Origin: Salinibacter sp. 10B
GTDB taxonomy: Bacteria > Bacteroidota > Rhodothermia > Rhodothermales > Salinibacteraceae
Direction: 5' to 3'
NCBI RefSeq assembly: GCF_002954405.1
Contig: NZ_MQWC01000004.1
Location: 2,978,668-3,042,667, forward strand
Length of the DNA: 64,000 bases
Both the position numbers and the translations under genes were made by a program. The notes below the pieces were generated by a model. It did not search any database. It saw only the letters and a program-made list of their open reading frames with translations, and was not told where the DNA came from. Positions 43,986-57,900 of this stretch are shown one piece after another (position 1 is the first letter of the stretch; the number at the start of each line of letters is the position of its first letter).

Positions 43986-46900
43986 ATGACGTTCGATACG
44001 GCTGCTATTTCTGTTTTCACGCGCTCTCTTCTCGTCGGGGTTGTGCTTTTGAGTGTTGTCTCTCCGGGAAGGGCACAGACGCCGCTCTCTCCGTCTGAGC
44101 GAGGAAAGCTGGACGGCGAGTTCCAGTTTCTTCTGAATCAGGAAGCGGAGGCCAAAGCCGTAGGACTGGAGGGAGAAAGTGGTCCGCCCTCGCTTTCGAG
44201 TGCGACGATCCCCTCCGAGCAAGAAACGCGCTACAGCGCCATCGTTCACACCGACGATCCGGCGGCTCTTCATCGGATTGGAGTCACACCGAATGCCGTC
44301 CACGACGGCTTTGCAACGGCGCGGGTAACCCGAGAAGAACTTCGCATTCTCGCCCAGACGGCGGCGGTCTCCCGCGTCGAGGTCAGTACGCAGCTCCAGC
44401 CGCACAACGATGAGGCCGCCCGAGAGGTGGGCGCGCGCCCGCTGAGTGCGGGGGCGGTCAATGGTACGAACTACAAGGGGCAGGACGTACTTACCTGCAT
44501 TATCGACACGGGAATCGACTACGACCACGGCGACTTTTACAGGGAGGACGGCACGACGCGCATTCTCTCAATCTGGGACCAGCCGGATGCGAATGACAGC
44601 ACGGGGACGGGGCATCCGAGCGGCTTCACGTACGGGGCCGAATATACAGAAGCAGAAATCAATGCAGGGAATGTATCCGAGGAGGATGTTAATGGACACG
44701 GGACGCACGTGGCCGGGACAGCCGCGAGCAGTGGGTATGAGCTGGTACTCGATGGCACGCAGTCGATGCAGGAGCACCGAGGAATGGCACCGAAGTCCGA
44801 TGTCGTCATGGTAAAGACGACCTTCGGCGGGGCAGAGCTCATTGACGCAATGAGTTACTGCGACCAGGTGGGGAGCGACGAGGGAAAGCCGGTCGTCATC
44901 AACATGAGTCTGGGCGGACACAGCGCGCCTCACGATGGGACGAGTACGCTCGCGCAGGCGGTCGACAATGTTACTGGGGCAGGCCGAATCGTGGTTGCCT
45001 CTGCGGGAAACGAGGGCAATCAGCCGATCCACGTGTCCGGCACGGTAGCAATCGGCAACACGAGTACGGAGCCCTGGACCGTAGGGAAATATACCCCAGA
45101 TACGGGCACGTCCAACGATTACTTTCTGACGACCTTCTGGATTGACGGGACGAACGACTTGGAGATTGTCGTCACTCCCCCCAGCGGTGCGTACAGCGAT
45201 ACGCTGGTTGCAACGGGGACCGGTACAGTCACCGCGTTTCGCGACTCCACAGAGGGGGCAGTGTACATCGAGAGTGGAATCGGGGACGTCAACGGCGACC
45301 GATACTTTGACGTGCAGGTGTATGATGCCACTACCAGCCAGGAACCAGCTGAGGGAACGTGGACGATTTCGATCACCAATGACGGAGGCTCATCTACGAC
45401 CTACCACGGATGGACTGCTGACTTTGACGACATGCCGGGAGACTTCGACAATGGCAACAGCGCATACAGCGTGGGGTATCCCGGCACCGCCACCAGTGCC
45501 ATTACCGTGGGGTCGTACGTACACCGGTGGCGCTGGTCGACCCACGATGATTCCTGGCACGCGTATTCTTATAGTTCTGATGGACGGGATGACATCTCTT
45601 CTTTCAGCAGCCGCGGCCCGCGCCGCGACGAGGTGCAGAAGCCAGACATTGCTGCGCCGGGACAGGGCATGATTTCGGCATTGTCGATGGATTCGAGTCC
45701 ACCGTCGGCCTACGTCGTGCAGGGAGGGAAACATCGCCTTCTTCAGGGCACCAGCATGTCGGCCCCAGTGGTTGCCGGCTCCGTCGCCCTCCTGCTTCAG
45801 GAAGATGCGACCCTCACCCCGTCGGACGTCAAAACCCTCCTCACGAACAACGCGCGGGAGGACAGTTACGTCACGACGTACGGCGCCACCCCGAACACCA
45901 CGTTCGGCGCGGGAAAGCTCGACGTGCTTGGAGCCATGACCGACTTGCTGAATGGGAGCTCACAGCGAGAAATTTTGTCGTACGAAGATCCCTGGACGAA
46001 CACAGATTCGCACACCGTTGGGGGAAGCGGAGCAAACAAGATTGCCCTCCAATTCACGCCGAATACGGATGGGGTCGTGACGGGTGCGCTCTTCAATCTC
46101 GGAGTGGCGCCAGCCTACACCCTCACCGGCCCATTGAACGTCGAAATCTGGTCGGATGACGGGGGCAATCCACATGAAAAGATCGGCAGCACGGTCCAGG
46201 TCGACACGAGTCAGCTGAAAGACTTTTCGCCGACGGCGGTCAATCTTGCTCCAGCGTCCGTCGATGTCATGGCCGAAACGGAGTATCACCTGGTGTTGTA
46301 CCCGAGCAATGCCTCAGAAACGATCAACATCGCGTACGAAACGGCAGGATCGGTCAGCGGGCGGAGCCAAACGTATGATGGCAGTTCGTGGAGCGGGTTG
46401 GGTAATGACTTCGTCATCCGTCCCGAGATCTCGCTTGTGGAGGGCACGTCCACCACGCTTCCCGTTGAAATTGCGGCCTTTTCGGGGACTACGAGCGGGT
46501 CAAACGTCACCCTCTCGTGGGCCACGGCCAGCGAGACAAACAATTCGGGCTTTCGGCTCCAGCACAAAGCTCCCGGAGCGTCCTCCTTTGTCCGCATCGG
46601 CTTTGTGCAGGGACATGGGACGACCGAGAACGCTCAAACGTATCGCTACGAAATGGAGAAGCTGTCTCCTGGCCGCCACACATTTCGGCTCCGACAGGTG
46701 GACCTAGACGGGACCGTTCATCCAGGACCGACCACCACCGTTAAGGTCAGCATGGAGACGGTTTACACCGTGTCGCCCGTGAAGCCCAATCCGGTGTCGT
46801 CCACAGGCACGATCGACATCGCGCTGCGAGAAAAACAGAACGTTCGGATGAGCCTCTACAACGTGCTCGGTCAGCGCGTGCGCGCTCTCCGCAACGGTCA

Positions 46901-47024
46901 GTTCGAACCGATGACGCGTCACACGATATCCATCGACGCGACTGAACTGTCAAGTGGCGTATATTTTCTTCGTATAGACGGAGAGCAGTTTCAAACGACT
47001 CGTAAAGTCACCGTGACACGGTAG
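43986..47024 (+). CDS. Subtilisin-like serine protease (S8) with type IX secretion C-terminal domain
   Basis: 1012 aa. A signal peptide (FTRSLLVGVVLLSVVSPGRA) is followed by a prodomain (30-140) and a catalytic domain with Asp-174 (CIIDTGIDYDHGDF), His-241 (NGHGTHVAGTAASSG) and Ser-590 (GTSMSAPVVAG). A long insertion between His and Ser includes beta-rich segments near VEIWSDDG-like repeats further on. After 640 come beta-sandwich domains (LPVEIAAFSGTTSGSNVTLS typical of the linker before sorting domains), then the C-terminal sorting domain: VKPNPVSSTGTIDIAL, VRMSLYNVLGQRV and LSSGVYFLRIDG. It is thus predicted to leave the cell through the PorSS/T9SS and to stay attached at the surface or be released. 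Confidence 0.93.
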   Translation: MTFDTAAISVFTRSLLVGVVLLSVVSPGRAQTPLSPSERGKLDGEFQFLLNQEAEAKAVGLEGESGPPSLSSATIPSEQETRYSAIVHTDDPAALHRIGVTPNAVHDGFATARVTREELRILAQTAAVSRVEVSTQLQPHNDEAAREVGARPLSAGAVNGTNYKGQDVLTCIIDTGIDYDHGDFYREDGTTRILSIWDQPDANDSTGTGHPSGFTYGAEYTEAEINAGNVSEEDVNGHGTHVAGTAASSGYELVLDGTQSMQEHRGMAPKSDVVMVKTTFGGAELIDAMSYCDQVGSDEGKPVVINMSLGGHSAPHDGTSTLAQAVDNVTGAGRIVVASAGNEGNQPIHVSGTVAIGNTSTEPWTVGKYTPDTGTSNDYFLTTFWIDGTNDLEIVVTPPSGAYSDTLVATGTGTVTAFRDSTEGAVYIESGIGDVNGDRYFDVQVYDATTSQEPAEGTWTISITNDGGSSTTYHGWTADFDDMPGDFDNGNSAYSVGYPGTATSAITVGSYVHRWRWSTHDDSWHAYSYSSDGRDDISSFSSRGPRRDEVQKPDIAAPGQGMISALSMDSSPPSAYVVQGGKHRLLQGTSMSAPVVAGSVALLLQEDATLTPSDVKTLLTNNAREDSYVTTYGATPNTTFGAGKLDVLGAMTDLLNGSSQREILSYEDPWTNTDSHTVGGSGANKIALQFTPNTDGVVTGALFNLGVAPAYTLTGPLNVEIWSDDGGNPHEKIGSTVQVDTSQLKDFSPTAVNLAPASVDVMAETEYHLVLYPSNASETINIAYETAGSVSGRSQTYDGSSWSGLGNDFVIRPEISLVEGTSTTLPVEIAAFSGTTSGSNVTLSWATASETNNSGFRLQHKAPGASSFVRIGFVQGHGTTENAQTYRYEMEKLSPGRHTFRLRQVDLDGTVHPGPTTTVKVSMETVYTVSPVKPNPVSSTGTIDIALREKQNVRMSLYNVLGQRVRALRNGQFEPMTRHTISIDATELSSGVYFLRIDGEQFQTTRKVTVTR

Positions 47025-47593: not shown

Positions 47594-47657
47594 TTGACAG
47601 TGCCCCCTGTAGTCGATACTGTACGGATGCGCGGTTATTTAGAACTGGTCTAAATAA
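47594..47657 (+). promoter_or_regulatory. Promoter and operator-like palindrome before the TonB receptor
   Basis: TTGACA (47594-47599), 17 bases, TACTGT (47617-47622): a good sigma-70-type pair. The predicted start of transcription, near 47629, is followed at 47635-47657 by a perfect 9-bp inverted repeat TTATTTAGA-5 bases-TCTAAATAA, placed where a bound dimeric repressor would block transcription. The AT-rich palindrome resembles Fur/DtxR-type iron operators in style; the regulator is not identified. A few bases later the receptor gene starts at 47673. Confidence 0.65.
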
Positions 47658-47672
47658 GATTTGCCGACCGGA

Positions 47673-49838
47673 ATGAGATTCCATCCTCCTCATCGTCGTC
47701 GTGGCGGCTCCTGCGAGCGCTCGGGGATATGCTCTGTTTTCTGCCTCCTTCTCCTCTTTCTTGTGGGAACGCCCTGGGCCGTTGCACAACCCCGTCCATC
47801 AGTAGCAGCGTCGGACACCACGGCTCCGCCCGACTCGCTTTGGCAGATGGACCTTGACCCGGTTGTGGTGACCGCCACGCGGGCAGAGCGGGCGGCGAGT
47901 GAGGTATCGGTGCCCGTCTCGGTGATCGGGCAGCAGGAGATCGAGGCGCAGGGCGCAGCCCGCATGACGGACCTGCTTGCCAACCAGCCCGGCCTCATGA
48001 TCAACAACGACCACGGCTCGGGCCTCCAGATCCGCGGGCTCGGCGCGGAGTACACGCTCATTCTGCTGAATGGGGAGCCGATCATCGGGCGGACGGCGGG
48101 GACGCTCGACCTCGACCGCCTCACGACCGGCAACATCGAGCGCGTAGAGATTGTGCGCGGTCCCACCTCGTCGCTGTACGGCAGCGATGCCCTGGCGGGG
48201 GTCGTCAACCTCATCACCCAGCGGCCGGACGACGGTGTTGGCGGAAACGTGCGCACCCGCTACGGCACGCACGGTACCGTCGATCTCAGTGCCCGGCTCG
48301 GCGGCAGAAGTGGGCCGTGGCAGGGATCGGTCTTCGTGAATCGGTACCGGACCGGCGGATACGACCTGGCCCCCGGCACGCTGTCGCCCACCCGGCCCGG
48401 CTACGTCGACTACACGGCGCAGGCCCGCGGGCAGTACGATGCGGGCGAACACACGACACTGTCGCTGCAGGGGCGTCTCGCGGCGCAGTCGCAGGACTAT
48501 ACCGTCGGCATCAGTAGTGCCGGCCCCTCCGGTGAAACACCACACACCCAACGTGCTGAGCAGATCGACTGGAACGTTTCACCCGAGATCGAGCAGCAGC
48601 TGGGCGCGGGCTGGCGGCTCACGGGCACGCTCTACGGCGCCGGCTATCACACCGATCAGACGCTCCGCCGCACGTCCAACGGAAGGGTCCGCAGCTCGTC
48701 GACGCTCGACCAGTACCACGGCGAGGCCGAGACGGTGCTGCGCGGCACGATCGGCAGCACTCACCTGCTCACGGTGGGGGCCGGAGCCACGCTCGAAACC
48801 ATCAACGCCGACCGCAAGACCGGGCAGCGGGTCGGCGGCTTCGGCTTCGTACAGGATGAGTGGAGCCCGGTGGATGCCCTCGACGTGACGGCGAGCGTTC
48901 GCCTGGATGGCAACAGCGACTACGCCTCGCGCCTGAGCCCGAAGCTGGCCGTCCGCTACGCGCTGCTGGATCGCCTTTCGTTTCGCGCGTCCGTCGGCAG
49001 CGGCTACAAGGCCCCGGCGTTTCGCCAGCTCTACCTCGACTTCACCAATCCGCAGGCCGGGTACTCGGTGCTCGGCGTGACGGAGGTGCAGGCGGGGCTG
49101 CGACGGTTCGAGGAGCAGGGCCAAATCGACACCTTCTTCCGCGATCCGAGCACGCTAGGCGATCCTCTCTCTCCCGAGACCTCACGTGCCTTCAACGTAG
49201 GGCTCACGGGTACGCTTTGGGAGGGCGCCACGCTCCGCCTCGACCTCTACCACAACGAGGTCGATAATCTGATCGACACGGAGGCGGTGGCCCGCAAGGC
49301 CAACGGGCAGAGGGTCTTCACCTACGTGAACCGAAACGAGGTTTTCACCCGCGGCGTCGAGGCCCGCCTCACGCTCCGTCCGGCTTCCGGGCTTCGCGTC
49401 CAGCTTGGCTACGACTACCTGGAGGCTAAGGACCGGCAGGTGTTGGAGCAGCTGGAGGAGGGCACCATCTACCGACGGGAGAACGGGCGCGACGTACGGG
49501 TGACGGTCGACGACTACGCCGGGCTGCCGGGACGCGCCACCCACTCCGGCACGACGCAGCTCCGCTACCGCTATGCGCCGCTGGGGCTGACTGCCAGCGT
49601 GCAGGGGACGCTCCGCGGCCGCGCCGGCTACGCCGACCTCGACGGCAACGGCATTATCGACGCCGACCGCGAATATCTGGAGCGCCGTATGCTCTGGGAC
49701 GCCACGCTTTCGAAAACCATTCGCGACAACTACACGCTGCGGGTCGGGACCGAGAACCTGCTCGACTACACGAATCCCACGCGCGTCCCGTCGCTTCCGG
49801 GCCGCACCTGGTTCGTGGAAGCCCAGGCCCGCTTCTAA
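47673..49838 (+). CDS. TonB-dependent outer-membrane receptor, probable heme (HmuR-like) receptor
   Basis: 721 aa. A signal peptide with ICSVFCLLLLFLVGTPWAVA is followed by the TonB box region (DPVVVTATRAERAASEVSVP) and the plug domain: LANQPGLMINNDHGSGLQIR, VEIVRGPTSSLYGSDALAGV and VNLITQRP. The 22-strand barrel contains FRASVGSGYKAPAFRQLYLD and ends with WFVEAQARF. FRAP/NPDL-like loop motifs of heme receptors occur only loosely (YKAPAFRQLY near 450). The substrate is inferred from the next gene, hmuY, and the operator upstream; vitamin B12 is the main alternative. It lies 65 bases before hmuY on the same strand. Confidence 0.88.
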   Translation: MRFHPPHRRRGGSCERSGICSVFCLLLLFLVGTPWAVAQPRPSVAASDTTAPPDSLWQMDLDPVVVTATRAERAASEVSVPVSVIGQQEIEAQGAARMTDLLANQPGLMINNDHGSGLQIRGLGAEYTLILLNGEPIIGRTAGTLDLDRLTTGNIERVEIVRGPTSSLYGSDALAGVVNLITQRPDDGVGGNVRTRYGTHGTVDLSARLGGRSGPWQGSVFVNRYRTGGYDLAPGTLSPTRPGYVDYTAQARGQYDAGEHTTLSLQGRLAAQSQDYTVGISSAGPSGETPHTQRAEQIDWNVSPEIEQQLGAGWRLTGTLYGAGYHTDQTLRRTSNGRVRSSSTLDQYHGEAETVLRGTIGSTHLLTVGAGATLETINADRKTGQRVGGFGFVQDEWSPVDALDVTASVRLDGNSDYASRLSPKLAVRYALLDRLSFRASVGSGYKAPAFRQLYLDFTNPQAGYSVLGVTEVQAGLRRFEEQGQIDTFFRDPSTLGDPLSPETSRAFNVGLTGTLWEGATLRLDLYHNEVDNLIDTEAVARKANGQRVFTYVNRNEVFTRGVEARLTLRPASGLRVQLGYDYLEAKDRQVLEQLEEGTIYRRENGRDVRVTVDDYAGLPGRATHSGTTQLRYRYAPLGLTASVQGTLRGRAGYADLDGNGIIDADREYLERRMLWDATLSKTIRDNYTLRVGTENLLDYTNPTRVPSLPGRTWFVEAQARF

Positions 49839-49903
49839 CTCCCCTTTGCTTCACGCACTCACTCCTCAAGCATTCACCCCTCACGCAACACGCAATACGA
49901 ACA

Positions 49904-50533
49904 ATGCTCAACCGAATCATGCAACGCTCTTCTCTCCTTGCCCTGCTGACGCTGACGATCGGAGCGGTTGTCCTCTCGGCCTGTGACAGCACCGGCGCCA
50001 ACGAGAAAGAGGATCCGGGGGAGACGGCGACCCTTGTGACTGTGGAGAACCTTCCCGCCGATCCCGACACGACCAGCGGCCGCGGGCGACCGCAGGGCTA
50101 CGGTCAATTCGCCTTCTTCAATCTGCGGGATAGCAGCATCGTTCTGCACTCCGACGAGTCGACCCGGTCCGATTCGGCATCGACGAAGTGGGACATCGCC
50201 TTCCAGAGTACAGACATCATCGTGAACGGGGGAGCGAACGGACCGGGGGAGGGCGCAGCGTACGTCGCTGAGAAGGCCTTCCAGGAAGTTACGGAGGTGA
50301 ATACCGACAGCCTGAAGAAGAACCGCGTGGAGAACTGGTACACCTACAACGCGAATGGCAATCACCTCGTCCGTCCCACGCCGGGTCGCACCATCGTCGT
50401 GCGCACGGCCGACGGCGAGTCGTACGCCAAGATTCGCATCCAGAGTTACTACCGTAATCAGAATACGGATAACGAGTCGCGGTACTACACCTTCGAGTAC
50501 GTGCTGCAGACGGACGGCACGTCGTTCGAGTGA
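49904..50533 (+). CDS. hmuY: HmuY-family heme-binding lipoprotein
   Basis: 209 aa. A lipobox (TLTIGAVVLSAC) gives an outer-membrane lipoprotein. The typical HmuY core is visible: FAFFNLRDSSIV, TKWDIAFQSTDIIVNGGANG, GEGAAYVAEKAF, then ENWYTYNANGNHLVRPTPGR, IVVRTADGESYAKIRIQSYY and a C-terminal strand with TFEYVLQTDG. In Porphyromonas gingivalis HmuY takes heme from hemoproteins and hands it to HmuR. The bis-His ligands of that protein are not obvious here, so heme ligation may differ. A leader sequence immediately upstream (CGCAACACGCAATACG) recurs before the chelatase gene. Confidence 0.85.
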   Translation: MLNRIMQRSSLLALLTLTIGAVVLSACDSTGANEKEDPGETATLVTVENLPADPDTTSGRGRPQGYGQFAFFNLRDSSIVLHSDESTRSDSASTKWDIAFQSTDIIVNGGANGPGEGAAYVAEKAFQEVTEVNTDSLKKNRVENWYTYNANGNHLVRPTPGRTIVVRTADGESYAKIRIQSYYRNQNTDNESRYYTFEYVLQTDGTSFE

Positions 50534-50660
50534 CACGTGATTCGGGAAGTGTGATGAGGGAATCGTGATGCGTGGCGGGAGAGAAGCAGCCCGATTCCAT
50601 GCATCACGTCACACGCTTCATTTCCAGGTTCTACGCACTACGCAACACGTAATACGTACA

Positions 50661-52340
50661 ATGCCGATGCTTCGACTCCTCCTCAGCGTTCTGGCCGCAT
50701 TCCTCTTCGTCGCCTCGCCCGCCAGGGCACAGTCGGACACGGTCGCTGCCGACGATCCCGGGCTCCTTGTGCTGGCTCCCGACCGCGGCTTTCTCGGCAA
50801 CGAGAAGACCCGCGACGTGATGGCTGATTTTCGCGAGCACACCTCGAACGTCGGGCTTGCCTTCGCGACGTACGAGGAGACGACGTCCAACCTGAACGAG
50901 GGGCTTTCGCAGATTGATACCGAGAACGGCGTCGTGGTGCTGCCGCTCTTCCTCTCCACCCACCACACGCTCTACCAGTCCGCCCGGGAGGCCATGCCGA
51001 CGGTCGAGAACGGCGTGCAGTGGGCTGCGCCACTGGGCACGAACTACCTCGCCGAGGAAATTCTGTTTGATCGGGTCGAGGCCCTCTCCGAACAGCCGGA
51101 CGAGGAGGCGCTGGTGGTGGTCGGGTACGGCGCCACGGACGCCGCGGGGGCCGATTCGATTCAAGCCGACCTCCAGGCCTCCGCCGAGCGCGCGGCCGAG
51201 AAGTACGGACTGGCCGGGAGTGGGCAGGTCGTCGTGCAGTACGCGAGGAACGCGTCCGAAAAGGCATCTCGCGCCGCCATGGGGACGGCGACGAAGACGG
51301 TGAAAGCGGCGGCCGGCGAGCACGAGCGTGTGATTGTCGTGCCGTACAATCTGGGGATGGAGTACACCTCGATGATGTCGAGCTGGTCGTGGATGAGTCG
51401 TCCCCTTGGATCGATCGACGGGGTGGTGGCGAACGGAGAGGCGGTGCTCCCCCACCGGAACGTGGAGCGCTGGCTGCGGCGCACGGCCACCACCTACCGC
51501 CCCCTCTCGCCCGACGACGTGGGCGTGATTGCCGTGCCGCACGGCTCGGAGTACAACTGGAACGAGACCATGCGGACGGGCCTCGACCCGCTTACGGACG
51601 ACTATACCATCGCGGAGGCCTTCAGCATGGTCGATCCGGTCGTCGTGGAGCGGGCGGTCCGGCAGCTGGAACAGGAGGGCTTCAAGGCGGCCGTGATGGT
51701 GCGCATTTTCTCGATGGAGAGCAGCTTCCAGGAGAAATCGCATTACATTCTGGGTCTTCGAGACACCTTCGGTCGAAGCATCATGGGCGAGAGCTTTCCC
51801 GAGCGCATTCGCACGCACCTGCAAATGACGACGCTCGGCGGCCTGGAGGCTGACCCTCACTTTGCAAAGGGTCTCCTCGACCGGGCACAGGCCATTAGCG
51901 AGAATCCGTCCGACGAGACGGTCATTCTGCTGGCACACGGCACCGGCTCCGACGAGGAGAACGCGCACTGGATGGAGAACCTGCGCACGATCGCCGACAC
52001 GATGCAGGCGCACGGCGGCGACGCCTTCCGCGACATCAAGGTGCACACCTGGCGCGAGGACTGGCCCGAGAAGCGGAAAGAGACGATCCCCGAAATCCAG
52101 CAGATGGTGAGAGACGCGTCGGAGGACGGCACGGCACTCGTCATTCCCGCCCGCACGACCTCACAGGGGCGCGCCTCGGAGTACCTGGAGGGACTCGACT
52201 ACCGCTACGGCAAAGGGTTTGCGCCGCACCCGCAGTTCGAGGCGTGGATGCGGAAGCAGATCGAGACGGGCATCGACCGCCTGCAGGCCGCGCCGCAGTC
52301 TGAGGCAGAGACGGTACAGACGGCCTCGTCTACCGAATAG
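50661..52340 (+). CDS. Exported multi-lobed CbiX/CbiK-like chelatase superfamily protein
   Basis: 559 aa with a signal peptide (MLRLLLSVLAAFLFVASPAR, cut after ARAQ). Four chelatase-like lobes can be traced: LLVLAPDRGFLGNEKT (35), ALVVVGYGATDAAGADSI (around 155), VIAVPHGSEYNWNETM (His-294) and VILLAHGTGSDEENAHWMEN (His-426). The last two keep the conserved HG of cobalt/iron chelatases; the first two lack it, though STHHTLYQS (His-101 and -102) is in lobe one. Located next to hmuY and the receptor, it may remove or hold iron from tetrapyrroles in the periplasm, as suggested for CobN-like HmuS; unproven. Start fixed by the signal peptide. Confidence 0.8.
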   Translation: MPMLRLLLSVLAAFLFVASPARAQSDTVAADDPGLLVLAPDRGFLGNEKTRDVMADFREHTSNVGLAFATYEETTSNLNEGLSQIDTENGVVVLPLFLSTHHTLYQSAREAMPTVENGVQWAAPLGTNYLAEEILFDRVEALSEQPDEEALVVVGYGATDAAGADSIQADLQASAERAAEKYGLAGSGQVVVQYARNASEKASRAAMGTATKTVKAAAGEHERVIVVPYNLGMEYTSMMSSWSWMSRPLGSIDGVVANGEAVLPHRNVERWLRRTATTYRPLSPDDVGVIAVPHGSEYNWNETMRTGLDPLTDDYTIAEAFSMVDPVVVERAVRQLEQEGFKAAVMVRIFSMESSFQEKSHYILGLRDTFGRSIMGESFPERIRTHLQMTTLGGLEADPHFAKGLLDRAQAISENPSDETVILLAHGTGSDEENAHWMENLRTIADTMQAHGGDAFRDIKVHTWREDWPEKRKETIPEIQQMVRDASEDGTALVIPARTTSQGRASEYLEGLDYRYGKGFAPHPQFEAWMRKQIETGIDRLQAAPQSEAETVQTASSTE

Positions 52341-52572
52341 CGCCCAGATGAACCGTGAGGCGTGGCGTGGATGTCCGATTGCTCGCTCACGCATCACGTC
52401 ATTACGTTTCAAGGCACGCTCCCATACGCCCCACGCCCTTTGCCTCTCGTCCCTCGAATAGCAGGCAACGACCGGGACTGGAGCAGATTCCTCGCAGGCC
52501 TCCCCCGCGCTCTTACCTCCCCACCATCCATGCCCTAACGCTCAACGCCAAACCCTGACCCCCCAACTGCCC

Positions 52573-52959
52573 ATGTACAATCTCCACAGTCCCAAGCTCT
52601 TCCGGACGCGTCACGGTGCGATTCTGCGGTGCGAATGCTGCAGCCGGATCCAGATCGAGTTTCGCGAGCACGTCTTGCTGGTAGACGAAGACGAGTTCGA
52701 ACTCTTGATGCGGACGGTCCGGCAGGCGCTGGCCCAGCTCCGTGAGGCCGAGGAGCAGGAGTCGTGGCAGCTGCAGGCGCAGACGGACGGAGGAGCGGTC
52801 GGCGTCGTGCTTACGGAAATGTCGCTGGCGGCCCTGCACGAACTGCTCCAGGGAGCATGGGCGATGTATGTCCTGGAAGAGCGCATCGACGCCGCGACGA
52901 CCGACCTGGCAGACCGGGCCACCGACGTCGTGCGCGATCATCTGCCATGCGCGGGATAA
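52573..52959 (+). CDS. Small CxCC-motif protein (DUF6686-like), copy 1
   Basis: 128 aa, no signal peptide. The N-terminal motif GAILRCECCSRIQIEFREHV contains a CxCC cluster on a beta-hairpin; the rest is helical and acidic (EFELLMRTVRQALAQLREAE, MSLAALHELLQGAWAMYVLE). The protein at 53682 has the same motif and layout. A family of such short proteins occurs in Bacteroidota near heme genes (DUF6686 by recollection). The clustered cysteines may bind a metal or a heme-derived ligand. It lies 232 bases after the chelatase gene; this interval shows no gene. Confidence 0.65.
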   Translation: MYNLHSPKLFRTRHGAILRCECCSRIQIEFREHVLLVDEDEFELLMRTVRQALAQLREAEEQESWQLQAQTDGGAVGVVLTEMSLAALHELLQGAWAMYVLEERIDAATTDLADRATDVVRDHLPCAG

Positions 52960-53137
52960 TCCCACCAGCGGGATTCCGCCGTGACGACCGTCTATAGACC
53001 CACGGATCCCTGGCTGTACCGATTGTGCAGCGCCCCGGATCGTTTTTCCAGCTCCGAGCGCATCGGGGCGCTCGGCCTGCCCGAGACGGGCACCCGCCCT
53101 CATCATCGAATCGACGGACCAGACGATATTCATTCTC

Positions 53138-53626
53138 ATGCGCACCCTTTCGCTTTCTCTTCTCCTCACCGCCCTGATTGCGATTGCTGGCTGTGGGGAC
53201 GGCGACGGTTCCTCCAACTCATCCTCCGATGCGGCGAACGAGGCCGTTACCGAGGTGACGATTACGCCCGTCGGCAATCAGATGCAGTTCGAGCAGACCG
53301 AGTTTACGGTGCCGGCCGGTGAGGAAATCTCGCTCACGTTCAAAAATACGGCGACGAGTTCGGCGATGAAGCACAATGTCGTCCTTCTAACGACCAGCGA
53401 GGGATCCGTCGTGACGCGGGTCGGACAGGCCGGGACGCAGGCGGCCGACAACGAATATGTGCCTGAAGATGACGCCGTCCTTGCCGCCACGGGCCTTGCC
53501 GATCCCGGGGAGACGGTGACAGCCACGTTCACGGCGCCGAGCGAGCCCGGCAGCTACCGGTACATCTGCACCTTCCCCGGGCACTACGCGACGATGCAGG
53601 GCACGATGACGGTCGTCTCCCCCTGA
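53138..53626 (+). CDS. Type-1 copper lipoprotein, azurin/auracyanin-like
   Basis: 162 aa. A lipoprotein signal (LSLSLLLTALIAIAGC) is followed by an acidic Ser-rich linker and a cupredoxin fold: VTITPVGNQMQFEQTEFTVP, SAMKHNVVLL with the first His ligand, and the C-terminal ligand loop YICTFPGHYATMQGTMTVV, in which Cys, His (+5) and Met (+9) match azurin/auracyanin. A small blue electron carrier anchored in the periplasm or outer membrane. It sits between the two CxCC genes and could feed or take electrons in heme/iron reduction; inferred from context only. Confidence 0.9.
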   Translation: MRTLSLSLLLTALIAIAGCGDGDGSSNSSSDAANEAVTEVTITPVGNQMQFEQTEFTVPAGEEISLTFKNTATSSAMKHNVVLLTTSEGSVVTRVGQAGTQAADNEYVPEDDAVLAATGLADPGETVTATFTAPSEPGSYRYICTFPGHYATMQGTMTVVSP

Positions 53627-53681
53627 CGCGGTCGCGTGTCCCGGCCCTCTGCGGATCTCCCTGACCACTGCTTCCAATCCC

Positions 53682-54035
53682 ATGACCCACTCGATCGACG
53701 ATTCGTCCCTGATCTTTCAGACGGAAAATGGCAAAGTGCTCCGCTGCGCGTGCTGCGATCGCATCGAGGTCGTCTTTGGAAACATTGCCGTTGCCGAGGA
53801 GCCGTTTCTCTTCAAGCGATTCCGTCAGGCGGTGAAGCAGATCGACGTTGAGGCGCAGCAGAGCCGCATCGATGCGGAGCGCCCCATCCTCCTGTCGGTG
53901 GACGGCGACCGATTTGCGTTCCGCTTCACGCGGGAGGAGGCGCTTGAGCTGGAGGAGTTGCTCGACGGTGCGGCGGCGATGCTTGAGCTTGGGGAGATTG
54001 TGGACGAGGAGCTTGGGTCTGATCGCACGTCCTGA
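53682..54035 (+). CDS. Small CxCC-motif protein (DUF6686-like), copy 2
   Basis: 117 aa. NGKVLRCACCDRIEVVFGNI carries the CxCC cluster in the same position and setting as in the 52573 protein, followed by LFKRFRQAVKQIDVEAQQSR and a C-terminal FRFTREEALELEELLDGAAA, matching the helical ending of copy 1. Clear paralogues, perhaps from a duplication now separated by the copper lipoprotein gene. No signal peptide, so it acts in the cytosol. Role unknown; metal or redox sensing is a reasonable guess. It lies 55 bases after the azurin-like gene. Confidence 0.65.
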   Translation: MTHSIDDSSLIFQTENGKVLRCACCDRIEVVFGNIAVAEEPFLFKRFRQAVKQIDVEAQQSRIDAERPILLSVDGDRFAFRFTREEALELEELLDGAAAMLELGEIVDEELGSDRTS

Positions 54036-54078
54036 TCGGCAGCAGATTCACAGTCACGATTCAGAACACGAAATCAGA

Positions 54079-54774
54079 ATGAGCGAGCCAACCTCCATTC
54101 AGCAATTCGACGAGGAGCGCGCGGACGGGTACGATGATCGAATCCGCCGCATCGCGCCCGGCTACGACGTGCTGCACGGACTGCTCTCCAGCGTCATGGC
54201 GGCGACGCTGGGGGATGAGGCCCACCTTCTCGTCGTGGGCGCGGGGACAGGGGCAGAAATCGCTGCGATGGGGGAGGTGCAGCCGGGCTGGCGCTTCACC
54301 GCGGTTGATCCCTCACCGGAGATGCTGGCGCGATGCCGCGAACGGATGGCGGGCACGGACCTGGACGGACGCGTGGAGTACGTCTGCGAGCGCGTGGAGG
54401 ACCTATCGTCTGGCCGAACGTTCGATGGGGCCACCTCGATTTTCGTCTCGCACTTCCTCCAGACCCGCGAGGCAAAGGAGCAGTACGTCGAATCGATTGC
54501 CCGGCGGCTGCGGTCGGGGGCGCCATTCGTGTTCGCGGACCTCTACGATCCCGAGGACGAGGCCGATCAGTTGTGGGCTGCGTGGCAGGAGTGGTTTGCG
54601 CGGGTCGGGGCGTCGGACGAGGAGGTAGAGCGCACGTTTTCAAAGATGGAGGACGAGATTTCGTTCGTGCTGGAAGAAGAGCTGAACCAGATTTTGCAAG
54701 CGACGGGCTTTGCGGAATGTACTCGCGTGTATCAGAGCTTCCTGTGGGGAGCATGGTGGACGCAGCGCGGCTGA
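54079..54774 (+). CDS. Class I SAM-dependent methyltransferase
   Basis: 231 aa, cytosolic. SAM-binding motif I is LLVVGAGTGAEIAAMGEV, the acidic residue after strand 2 lies in FTAVDPSPEMLARCRERM, and then come VEYVCERVEDLS and FVSHFLQTREAKEQYVESI. The C-terminal region has FADLYDPEDEADQLWAAWQE and a Trp-rich ending (SFLWGAWWTQRG). The target is unknown; such tRNA- or small-molecule-type enzymes are hard to separate by sequence. It is the last gene on the plus strand of the heme/metal stretch, so a tetrapyrrole substrate is imaginable but unsupported. Confidence 0.85.
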   Translation: MSEPTSIQQFDEERADGYDDRIRRIAPGYDVLHGLLSSVMAATLGDEAHLLVVGAGTGAEIAAMGEVQPGWRFTAVDPSPEMLARCRERMAGTDLDGRVEYVCERVEDLSSGRTFDGATSIFVSHFLQTREAKEQYVESIARRLRSGAPFVFADLYDPEDEADQLWAAWQEWFARVGASDEEVERTFSKMEDEISFVLEEELNQILQATGFAECTRVYQSFLWGAWWTQRG

Positions 54775-54918: not shown

Positions 54919-57900
54919 ATGACCGACGCCGCCGACGCCTCGTCCGACTCGTCGCCTTCGCTGCTCCGCCGCATTGCCATTTGGGGCGGGAGCATTCTGG
55001 GTGGGCTCTTCGTCCTGATCCTGGTCGCCGCACTGCTAATCCCCCAGTTTTTTACCTCCGAGGAGCTGAAGGGCTACGTCATTCCGCCGATGGAGGAGGC
55101 CACCGGGCGGCAGGTGGAGATCGACAACATCGGGCTTCGCGTCCTGTGGACGCCTGCCGTATCCGTCTCGGGCTTTCGCCTCGCCAACCGGGAGGGGTAC
55201 GGCCCGGAGCCGGGCGTGGAGGCACAGGAGTTGAACGTGGAAGTCGCTCTCTGGCCGCTCCTCACCGGCGCCATCGAGCCGTCGGCCGTGGAGCTGGTCG
55301 ACCCGGTCATCCGCTACGAGATTGCGGAGGACGGGAGCACGAACTTCGAGGACCTGATGGGGGGTGACACGACGGAGGCCGCGGCCGAAGAGGACGAGGC
55401 GGTGCTTTCCATTCCCGTCTCCAACTTCCGCACCACGGGGGCGCAGGTGCGCTATCGGGATCGCAGCACCGGGCAGGCGCTGGAGCTCGACTTCGACGCC
55501 CAGCTCAGTGCGCTTCCCGACGGCAACGCCCTCACCAGCGCGGGCACGATCGACGTGCAGGCCCTTCGCGCCGTGCTGCCGGATGTGCGGGAGGACACGT
55601 TGTCGGTGACGGACGCTACGATCACGTACGACGTGCGGGCGGCGCTGGCGGACGGGCAGATCGATCTGTCGGACCTCACGATCGAGACGGCACCCATTAC
55701 CGTGAGCACCACCGGCGCCGTGACGCGTCTCAACACGCGTCCGGCGGTGGACCTGACCGTGGAGACGCGGGAGGCCGACCTTGCCCAGCTGGCGGCGTTT
55801 GCCCCGGCGGCCGCCGGGGAGGGCCTCAACCCGCAGGGTTCGCTCCAGCTCAAGACGACGATTCAGGGGCCGCTCCCCGACAGCACCGGGGCAATGGACA
55901 GTCTCGCGGTCGACGGCACGGGACAGCTCTCTGGCATCGGCGTCGACTATCAGGGCAGAGCGCTCCTCCGCGACTTCTCGGCGGACCTGGCGCTATCCCT
56001 GCAGGAGGCGGCCGTCCGATCCATGCAGGGGCAGCTCCTCGGCGCTGATCTCAGCGGAAATGTCGCCGTCGGGGATCCGATGGGCACGCCGCAGGTCGAC
56101 CTCGACCTCGAAACCGGTGCGATGAATCTGGCGGACCTCGCGGCGTTTGCTCCGCCCGAGCAGGTGGAGGGCTACAATCCGCAGGGGACGCTCCAGCTTG
56201 CGATCAAGGCGACGGGGCCGATTCCAGAGGACACGGAGGGGATGGATCAGCTGACGGTCGACGGTACTGGGCAGTTGGCGGGTGTGGGCGTCGACTATGA
56301 CGGCACGGCGATGCTGCGTGAGCTGGGGGCCGACCTCTCGTTCTCCTCCACGACCGCTGCGGTACAGGGCCTCAAAGGGCAGCTTCTCGGCAAACCGCTG
56401 GAGGGCACCGTCACGATCCGCGATCCGCTGGGGAGCCCCGCGGTAGACGGGCGGCTGGCCGGCGCGGCGGACATTGCGGAGCTTGCCTCCCTGGCGGGCG
56501 AAGACGCGGAAATGGAGGGCCTACGCGGCACGGCCGACTACGACGTGCAGTTTGTCGGGCCGGTGGACACTCCCGACGCCATCCGGCCCAACGGCCGGAT
56601 TCGGCTCACGGAATTCCGATATCCCTACGAGGGATTCCGGCACCCCGTCGAGATTCCGGATGCCACCGTACGGCTCACCGGCACGGGCCTTTCGATGGAC
56701 CGGTTCACGATTCAAACCGGCGAGCAATCGATGGCGCTGCAGACGACCGTTCGCAACCTCTTCCCGATCTCGAAGGGGCTGGCCGAGACCAACCCCGCGA
56801 TGGCTGTCGACTTTGCCTTCACGTCCGACCGTCTCGACCTCGTGGAGCTGTATCCGGAAGCGACTGGGGACACCTCGGAGGTCTACTACTCGCAACTCTT
56901 CGCCGCCACACTCTCCGGTTCAAAGGTGAACGGACGATCGCCGGAGGCCGTCGCGAAGAAGCTGTACGGCGGCACCGAGCTTCCGGCCTACGCCGTGGAC
57001 GGAGATGTCGAGATCGCGACCTTCCTCAACGATCCGCAGCGCGTGGACAATCTCGCGTTCGACGTGCAGATGCGCGACCGGCGGTTGGAGATGCGCAACC
57101 TGTCAGGGACCACGTATGAGGGACAGCTCGCCGGATCGATCACGTTTGACCAGAGCGGGTCGGCCACGAGTGCGGCCCGCTCCACGAGGGAGTCGGTGCT
57201 GCTGGCCTCCACGACCGGCGGCGCTGCCCCGATGCCCCCCGCGTCCGACCTCGACTACGACATTCGGCTCAAAGGGGCGCGGGCCGGGGCCTTTCTGGAG
57301 GACTGGACCACGCTCGGGCGCGTCGTCAACGGCACACTCGATCTCGAAATGAACGGCGACACTCCTCTCACGGAGGGTTTCCTGCCCGTGGCGAACGCGC
57401 TTACGGCCAAGGGCACGTCCATTGTGGCCAACGGGGGCCTCTCACTGAACCTCGGCGCCGTGAAGATGCTCACCGACAAGCTCGGCCTCGGCTCTGCTTT
57501 GACCTCCTTCAAGCGATTCGGTGGGCCCTTTACCATTGAGAACGGCACGCTGGAGATGGGGACGTGGGAGATGGGCGGCGCGTCCACGAACGCACGCCTC
57601 TCCGGAGCGCTCGGCCTTGGCGGCAGTGTGGACGTGGAGATGCGGATGGACCTGCCGCTGACGGCCCTGCAGAAGAGCAACATTCCGGGCCTCGTGGGGG
57701 GCAAAGTCACGAGCCTCGTGCAGAAGCTGGCCGGCGGGGATGTGGGTAGTAACACGATCCCCGTGCGCGTTCAGGTGGGGGGTACGATGAGCGATCCGAC
57801 CGTAGAGGTTGTGGACAAGGAGGCCGTACGCTCCGCCATTCAGAAGATGGTGAAGGAGGAAGGGCTCAACCGCGTGCGGAATCTGTTTGATGGGGGGTAA
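54919..57900 (+). CDS. Large AsmA-family protein with internal repeats
   Basis: 993 aa. An N-terminal cytosolic stretch rich in Ser/Asp and one helix (WGGSILGGLFVLILVAALL) anchor the protein in the inner membrane; the rest is periplasmic. The AsmA N-terminal region has FTSEELKGYVIPPMEEATGR and VEIDNIGLRVLWTPAVSVSG. Two to three repeats of about 118 residues start near 287, 405 and 518 (each with LAxLAxFAP or similar, then GTGQL-G-GVDY). The C-terminal AsmA-C region ends with LVGGKVTSLVQKLAGGDVGS. Relatives (AsmA, TamB, YhdP) form lipid-transport bridges between the membranes, the likely role here. Start at 54919. Confidence 0.85.
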   Translation: MTDAADASSDSSPSLLRRIAIWGGSILGGLFVLILVAALLIPQFFTSEELKGYVIPPMEEATGRQVEIDNIGLRVLWTPAVSVSGFRLANREGYGPEPGVEAQELNVEVALWPLLTGAIEPSAVELVDPVIRYEIAEDGSTNFEDLMGGDTTEAAAEEDEAVLSIPVSNFRTTGAQVRYRDRSTGQALELDFDAQLSALPDGNALTSAGTIDVQALRAVLPDVREDTLSVTDATITYDVRAALADGQIDLSDLTIETAPITVSTTGAVTRLNTRPAVDLTVETREADLAQLAAFAPAAAGEGLNPQGSLQLKTTIQGPLPDSTGAMDSLAVDGTGQLSGIGVDYQGRALLRDFSADLALSLQEAAVRSMQGQLLGADLSGNVAVGDPMGTPQVDLDLETGAMNLADLAAFAPPEQVEGYNPQGTLQLAIKATGPIPEDTEGMDQLTVDGTGQLAGVGVDYDGTAMLRELGADLSFSSTTAAVQGLKGQLLGKPLEGTVTIRDPLGSPAVDGRLAGAADIAELASLAGEDAEMEGLRGTADYDVQFVGPVDTPDAIRPNGRIRLTEFRYPYEGFRHPVEIPDATVRLTGTGLSMDRFTIQTGEQSMALQTTVRNLFPISKGLAETNPAMAVDFAFTSDRLDLVELYPEATGDTSEVYYSQLFAATLSGSKVNGRSPEAVAKKLYGGTELPAYAVDGDVEIATFLNDPQRVDNLAFDVQMRDRRLEMRNLSGTTYEGQLAGSITFDQSGSATSAARSTRESVLLASTTGGAAPMPPASDLDYDIRLKGARAGAFLEDWTTLGRVVNGTLDLEMNGDTPLTEGFLPVANALTAKGTSIVANGGLSLNLGAVKMLTDKLGLGSALTSFKRFGGPFTIENGTLEMGTWEMGGASTNARLSGALGLGGSVDVEMRMDLPLTALQKSNIPGLVGGKVTSLVQKLAGGDVGSNTIPVRVQVGGTMSDPTVEVVDKEAVRSAIQKMVKEEGLNRVRNLFDGG

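Follow-up and report, generated by a model that had tools for sequence, protein, structure and literature searches.

A probable iron-regulated heme-uptake operon with an exported tandem class II chelatase-like protein in Salinibacter sp. 10B

Background

How might a bacterium take iron from heme when neither an evident route for heme into the cytosol nor the known heme de-chelatase is found in its genome? The question is raised by a 64,000-nucleotide stretch of the genome of the salt-loving bacterium Salinibacter sp. 10B (hereafter the window; contig NZ_MQWC01000004.1, positions 2,978,668 to 3,042,667), in which a palindrome is followed on one strand by genes for a TonB-dependent receptor, an HmuY-family lipoprotein, a chelatase-like protein, two small CxCC proteins that enclose an azurin-like lipoprotein, and a methyltransferase. 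How bacteria remove iron from heme and spare the ring was argued over for a long time. Only in 2025 was a first de-chelatase demonstrated, the CobN-like, NADH-dependent HmuS of the Bacteroidota hmu operon (PMC12583661; also PMC13227078). For IhtB of Porphyromonas gingivalis, a CbiK-like outer-membrane heme-binding protein, an action on heme outside the cytosol has been proposed, as PMC6460266, citing Dashper 2000, relates. Comparing the locus with those of relatives and modeling its proteins, we judge it somewhat probable that it is an iron-repressed heme-iron acquisition operon with an exported class II de-chelatase.

Gene content and order of the locus

An earlier note, made from the letters alone, had listed these elements, and every one of them was recovered where it had been placed, on the plus strand between window positions 47635 and 54774, by Pfam and NCBIfam matches and by the palindrome itself:

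47635..47657, no strand: predicted iron-operator palindrome TTATTTAGA-ACTGG-TCTAAATAA, perfect 9+9
47661..49838, plus strand: TonB-dependent outer-membrane receptor, heme/HmuR-like by context (PF00593, PF07715); alternative ATG start at 47673
49904..50533, plus strand: HmuY-family hemophore-like lipoprotein (PF14064, 49 bits)
50661..52340, plus strand: exported tandem (2 x bilobal) class II chelatase-like protein, 559 amino acids, signal peptide (PF01903, 22.4 bits; cut-off 22)
52573..52959, plus strand: DUF6686-type protein A, CxCC motif (PF20391, 17.7 bits, below the cut-off of 23.9, alignable with the family)
53138..53626, plus strand: azurin-like lipoprotein with the type 1 copper ligands His, Cys, His, Met (PF00127, 58 bits; TIGR02695, 71 bits)
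53682..54035, plus strand: DUF6686 protein B, CxCC motif (PF20391, 42.7 bits; cut-off 23.9)
54079..54774, plus strand: class I S-adenosylmethionine-dependent methyltransferase (PF08242)

The receptor, HmuY, the chelatase, the second DUF6686 protein, the cupredoxin and the methyltransferase passed their Pfam cut-offs, and the first CxCC protein stayed below. Spacing across the seven genes is 43-232 bp, and terminator signals between them were none above chance level. The identical seven-gene order, azurin included, recurs in a second species-level genome, a Salinivenus metagenome-assembled genome (MAG; L077) whose chelatase is 84% identical; the other nearest named genomes are an uncultured Bacteroidetes MAG (L078) and Salinibacter altiplanensis (L079; 81%). 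The arrangement by which HmuY/HmuR operons are recognized, a TonB receptor followed directly by an HmuY-family lipoprotein, is present here. The lipobox Cys27 of HmuY is invariant in 23/23 relatives, and the candidate heme ligand His154 is kept in only 16/23.

The receptor's top NCBIfam models are those for B12 (TIGR01779; 5e-62) and heme (TIGR01785), both below their cut-offs. That the locus imports a corrinoid, a siroheme-like compound or another metallated tetrapyrrole, and not heme, nevertheless seems very improbable: although the B12 receptor model is the best match, sirohydrochlorin is a substrate of CbiX/CbiK relatives and the methyltransferase has a weak similarity to CpaM, the HmuY family binds heme, HmuTUV-HemS genes lie within the same operon in relatives, and the operator is of the iron type.

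A predicted iron operator and its regulon

The palindrome lies 4-16 bp 5' of the candidate receptor starts (TTG 47661, ATG 47673), where the expectation from shuffled sequence is 0 matches in the window, and its 17-bp core, TTTAGA-N5-TCTAAA, has exactly three exact copies in the 4.75 Mb genome. Forty relatives hold 96 exact sites, vs 19 for the reversed pattern, and 20 of the 29 sites inspected lie within 300 bp 5' of iron or heme genes (some of the genes behind these 29 sites were named from sequence, and ten were scanned with Pfam). In relatives the genes behind the operator encode TonB receptors, binding-protein ATP-binding cassette (ABC) permeases, iron-type binding proteins, FeoA, an Rrf2 regulator, HemS and chelatases; the operator also precedes operons of receptor and HmuY, half-length chelatases on their own (in L049, 24 bp separate it from the start) and, in L074, an isolated DUF6686 gene. 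Near-matches in the source genome stand 5' of an FbpA-like gene (L005) and of a third DUF6686-like gene (L006). Next to one HmuY locus (L053) lies a gene for a DtxR-type protein that contains a FeoA domain. Because the same core precedes FeoA, iron-type ABC, HemS, chelatase and heme-receptor genes in relatives, the palindrome, suspected from the start of resembling an iron operator, is on this comparative evidence a predicted iron operator, and its sites mark a predicted iron regulon. A literature search found no description of a TTTAGA-N5-TCTAAA operator.

Several other operator sites were recorded. Two exact copies, 129 bp apart, lie between bactofilin and carotenoid oxygenase genes (L164:7577-7721; genome C4:1889576-1889721), with no gene recognized as the pair's likely target, and tight operator pairs that have one identical site in common are seen in G199 and G340. 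In two families, small CxxC proteins (QCTACTHL, L141:1603-1797; QCLACAHL, L142) are encoded 3' of the operator, and the one of them that was scanned had no Pfam match. In two genomes of the Salinibacter group (L149, L151) a gene for a 2-oxoacid:ferredoxin oxidoreductase-like subunit comes immediately 3' of the operator, and in another locus (L135:1596-2804) a DUF4856 protein, possibly imelysin-like, stands behind it.

The exported tandem chelatase

The N and C halves of the chelatase are homologous to one another (hhalign E 6.9e-13), and each half matches half-length relatives. PF01903, hhalign, the AlphaFold2 (AF2) model (predicted local distance difference test, pLDDT, 92; predicted template modeling score, pTM, 0.88) and a fold search agree on a bilobal, Rossmann-like class II chelatase fold, present twice in tandem. 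The PDB matches of the fold search were CbiK-P (2XVX, the top match), DR2241, SirB, HemH, CbiK and FetB; to 2XVX, the periplasmic CbiK of Desulfovibrio, the values were E 1e-4, a template modeling (TM) score of 0.60 by target and 13% identity. Searching PDB sequences with the chelatase alone returned spurious matches only; relatives of known structure had to be sought by fold and with a profile of the family. Apparent N-terminal signal sequences, judged by reading the sequence without a signal-peptide program, are found on the chelatase and on its full- and half-length relatives.

Two histidines of the C half, H294 and H426, both in HG motifs that line up with that of CbiX/CfbA, are invariant in the alignment of full- and half-length proteins and in 39/39 tandem proteins; we take the HG-motif histidine to be the catalytic one. 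The N half has lost both HG motifs, with APDRGF in place of HG, and keeps in 7/8 a histidine (His102) in the region of the second His of CbiX; the C half keeps both HG histidines and has its second-His positions replaced (R498, E353).

That the exported protein removes no iron, and is instead a periplasmic heme or porphyrin carrier or inserts or exchanges another metal (manganese as in FetB, cobalt as in CbiK-type enzymes), appears rather unlikely. Its closest folds are CbiK-P, SirB and FetB, the last of which is reported to insert manganese into protoporphyrin (PMC13402209), and the loss of both HG motifs from the N half and of one metal-ligand position from the C half would suit such a role; yet the iron operator and the lack of HemS and HmuT in the source genome point to iron harvest outside the cytosol, and H294 and H426 are kept throughout the tandem proteins. 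Other points weigh against an iron-repressed heme operon with an exported de-chelatase. The putative metal-ligand set is unlike that of CbiK/CbiX, the second His of the C half being gone, so that activity and direction are not readable from sequence; several half-length chelatases are solitary and distant from HmuY; and Salinibacter altiplanensis (G199) has HemS/HmuTUV as well as the chelatase. Exclusivity of HemS and chelatase is significant by genome (p 1e-4) and not by genus (p 0.19), and a general mutual exclusion of the two was dropped on the latter value.

The preferred reading, in which the exported protein would take iron out of heme, has partial parallels. As in the Bacteroidota hmu/HmuS system, HmuY and a TonB receptor are combined with a chelatase-class protein predicted to lie outside the cytosol, under iron limitation and with no cytosolic heme breakdown needed; unlike HmuS, a large class I CobN/ChlH-type membrane protein, the protein here is a soluble, exported class II tandem, and CobN is absent. 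IhtB and FetB (structure PDB 9b86), presumably one protein, share with it the class II chelatase fold, the extracytosolic place and the heme-uptake setting, but form a single bilobal unit outside an HmuY operon and match it weakly (Foldseek E 0.01; profile E 0.8). CbiK-P of Desulfovibrio vulgaris, a periplasmic cobaltochelatase and the best structural match, is likewise periplasmic and, unlike the tandem, a single bilobal unit. The initial impression that the combination was undescribed was overstated: an exported CbiK-type chelatase for heme has precedent in IhtB/FetB and CbiK-P, so that neither class II chelatases exported for heme uptake nor this kind of system is new. What we did not find described is a tandem class II chelatase in an HmuY operon, DUF6686 in a heme/iron regulon and a link between HmuY and cupredoxins.

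Missing routes for heme and iron

HemS and FeoB_C were not found in the source genome, and HmuT was found only as a distant homologue of the kind that most family members have. CobN (PF02514) was found neither in this genome nor in 57 relatives, and is present in 5/14 control genomes. A CbiX/CbiK-type protein does then seem, as had been supposed, to take the place of the CobN-like HmuS outside the cytosol, given its export signal and the count of CobN in 0/58 genomes. In congeners, HmuTUV-HemS operons are flanked by the same receptor, HmuY, DUF6686 and methyltransferase genes, whereas the source genome is without HemS or an HmuT orthologue. With no evident HmuTUV-HemS route for periplasmic heme, heme oxygenases not having been searched for, heme work outside the cytosol is favored, and the joint absence of HemS, an HmuT orthologue, CobN/HmuS and FeoB favors a putative removal of iron there. 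Since no FeoB was found while an FbpA-like gene has a near-operator, the data suggest that released iron enters as Fe(III).

Conserved linkage and phylogenetic spread

The search for conserved linkage among Rhodothermota/Bacteroidota that the earlier note had called for gave a positive answer. In a phylum sample of 394 genomes, with a distance limit of 10 kb and a profile scan of genome contigs for the chelatase based on the full-length alignment, the chelatase is linked to HmuY in 16/30 genomes that have both, and DUF6686 to HmuY in 16/26; by our own estimate, chance would link them in ~0.5% per genome. Receptor, HmuY, chelatase and DUF6686 form an unbroken series in four members of a single genus (G003, G050, G058, G155), and in another genome (G030) DUF6686 lies ahead of the chelatase.

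Beyond the phylum, a search with two short peptide patterns, which reached mostly MAGs (names taken from their records), located the tandem family in at least six phyla, among Rhodothermota/Balneolota, Nitrospirota, Nitrospinota, Acidobacteriota, Proteobacteria, Latescibacterota, KSB1 and Ignavibacteria. Within 6 kb of the tandem chelatase, 42 named loci encode a TonB receptor (30), TonB/ExbBD (12), DUF6686-like proteins (11), PepSY (11), HmuY (7), cupredoxins (4) and ferritin types (4), these labels being profile matches up to E 0.01 with samples confirmed by Pfam. Three loci (L094, L099, L110) have one CxC protein on either side of the chelatase, two of these being above the DUF6686 cut-off. 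Separately, in Nitrospira (L103:11873-12856, L105, L107) a second, half-length CbiX-like gene follows a TonB receptor and is itself followed by one for a PepSY-like membrane protein.

The CxCC proteins and the methyltransferase

Relatives of the DUF6686 proteins were collected with iterated profiles and checked with Pfam, because PF20391 alone misses many; several short CxC proteins of Nitrospirota and Acidobacteria stay below its cut-off. In an alignment with clear members of the family, C20 and C23 of protein A are nearly invariant. The paired CxCC proteins have no evident signal peptide, and the only matches of a fold search (protein B modeled at pLDDT 80) were, at E 0.02, DUF155-family proteins whose function is unknown. 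The third DUF6686-like gene of the source genome (L006:1559-1909; hhalign E 4e-11) has an operator with one mismatch, and its product lacks the CxCC at the usual place and has CNCDC further on. No description of DUF6686 was found in the literature search.

The methyltransferase adjoins DUF6686 in three congeners (G147, G195, G199), where the genes run receptor, (HmuY), HmuT/U/V-type genes, HemS, (chelatase), DUF6686, methyltransferase, an M28 peptidase gene joining the HmuT/U/V-type ones in at least one congener; gene calls in G195 are partly masked by antisense open reading frames. DUF6686 and the methyltransferase are thus, by gene order, predicted members of the genus's heme-uptake operons, chelatase present or not. 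The methyltransferase link first proposed is confined to the genus.

The copper protein

The copper protein shares with the azurin/plastocyanin family (PF00127, TIGR02695) its type 1 copper ligands, which align across six cupredoxins, and its lipoprotein nature; its score is below the azurin cut-off (TIGR02695, 71.3 vs 105.1 bits), making it azurin-like and not azurin. Counting it, the source genome has seven such related proteins, so that the presence of an azurin alone is weak evidence, and most relatives have none at this locus. In another genus (L165) an azurin gene comes directly after the heme receptor and ahead of an HmuT-like gene, which is followed by one or more DUF6686 genes. In two Nitrospirota genomes (L094, L099) the HmuY protein has as its N-terminal part a cupredoxin with these same ligands, and in L110 cupredoxin and HmuY are separate genes 0.6 kb apart; the cupredoxin assignment of the fusions goes via 53% identity to the L110 protein, which matches sulfocyanin (22.7 bits; cut-off 21). 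The fusion is rare, found in one genome of a 246-genome Nitrospirota sample plus L094, and no description of HmuY with a cupredoxin was found in the literature search. The suspected tie between a copper carrier and heme uptake is non-random, as the fusions and L165 indicate, while the azurin itself is lineage-specific.

A smaller unit, of receptor, HmuY, chelatase and DUF6686 only, with azurin and methyltransferase as lineage neighbors that have unrelated jobs, is a somewhat doubtful alternative. The seven azurin copies of the source genome, the lack of an azurin at this locus in most relatives and the genus-limited methyltransferase link speak for it; the azurin behind the heme receptor in L165, the order kept in L077, the HmuY-cupredoxin fusions of two Nitrospirota and the methyltransferase behind DUF6686 in the heme operons of three congeners speak against it. 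Upstream of the seven genes, on the same strand, lies a gene for a subtilisin-like secreted protease with an apparent type IX secretion C-terminal domain (window 43986-47024), and an AsmA/DUF748 family protein is encoded 144 bp past the methyltransferase (window 54919-57900).

Cupredoxins usually have high potentials, and bound heme a low one. The copper protein is for this reason more likely to accept electrons, for example from Fe(II), than to donate them to heme, and the reduction of heme iron that had been guessed at would be energetically awkward, running against these potentials.

Proposed route and its meaning

Under iron limitation, a metalloregulator would leave the TTTAGA-N5-TCTAAA operator, whose regulon is seen by comparison, and heme would reach the periplasm through the lipoprotein HmuY and the TonB receptor, as their families suggest. 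There the tandem chelatase, whose export signal, fold and context are seen, would bind heme and extract the iron, leaving the porphyrin, and so fill, with a class II protein, the role that the CobN-like HmuS has in gut Bacteroidota; its N half, with its HG motifs lost, may bind or pass on substrate, and the C half keeps both. Electrons would be handled by the copper protein and, in relatives, by a PepSY membrane protein. With FeoB not found and a near-operator at an iron-type binding-protein ABC gene, the cupredoxin more likely takes an electron from released Fe(II), so yielding Fe(III) for that importer, than reduces heme. The paired DUF6686 CxCC proteins, as regulon members without an evident signal peptide, possibly handle metal or heme in the cytosol, and the methyltransferase would be accessory.

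With less assurance, we tentatively consider a heme de-chelatase of a second kind, unrelated to the first. It would be an exported class II tandem, spread across several phyla in company with TonB receptors, HmuY, a pair of CxC(C) proteins and, as redox partner, a cupredoxin (fused to HmuY in some), and would strip iron from heme in the periplasm of bacteria that lack HemS, CobN-HmuS and Feo. Several phyla far apart from one another hold parts of the set, so this may be an overlooked route for getting iron from heme. The locus points to another protein class for the de-chelation step in aerobic and non-gut lineages; the uncharacterized DUF6686 family would gain a role in heme/iron metabolism, and the HmuY-cupredoxin fusions raise the prospect of a copper-dependent redox step in heme-iron uptake.

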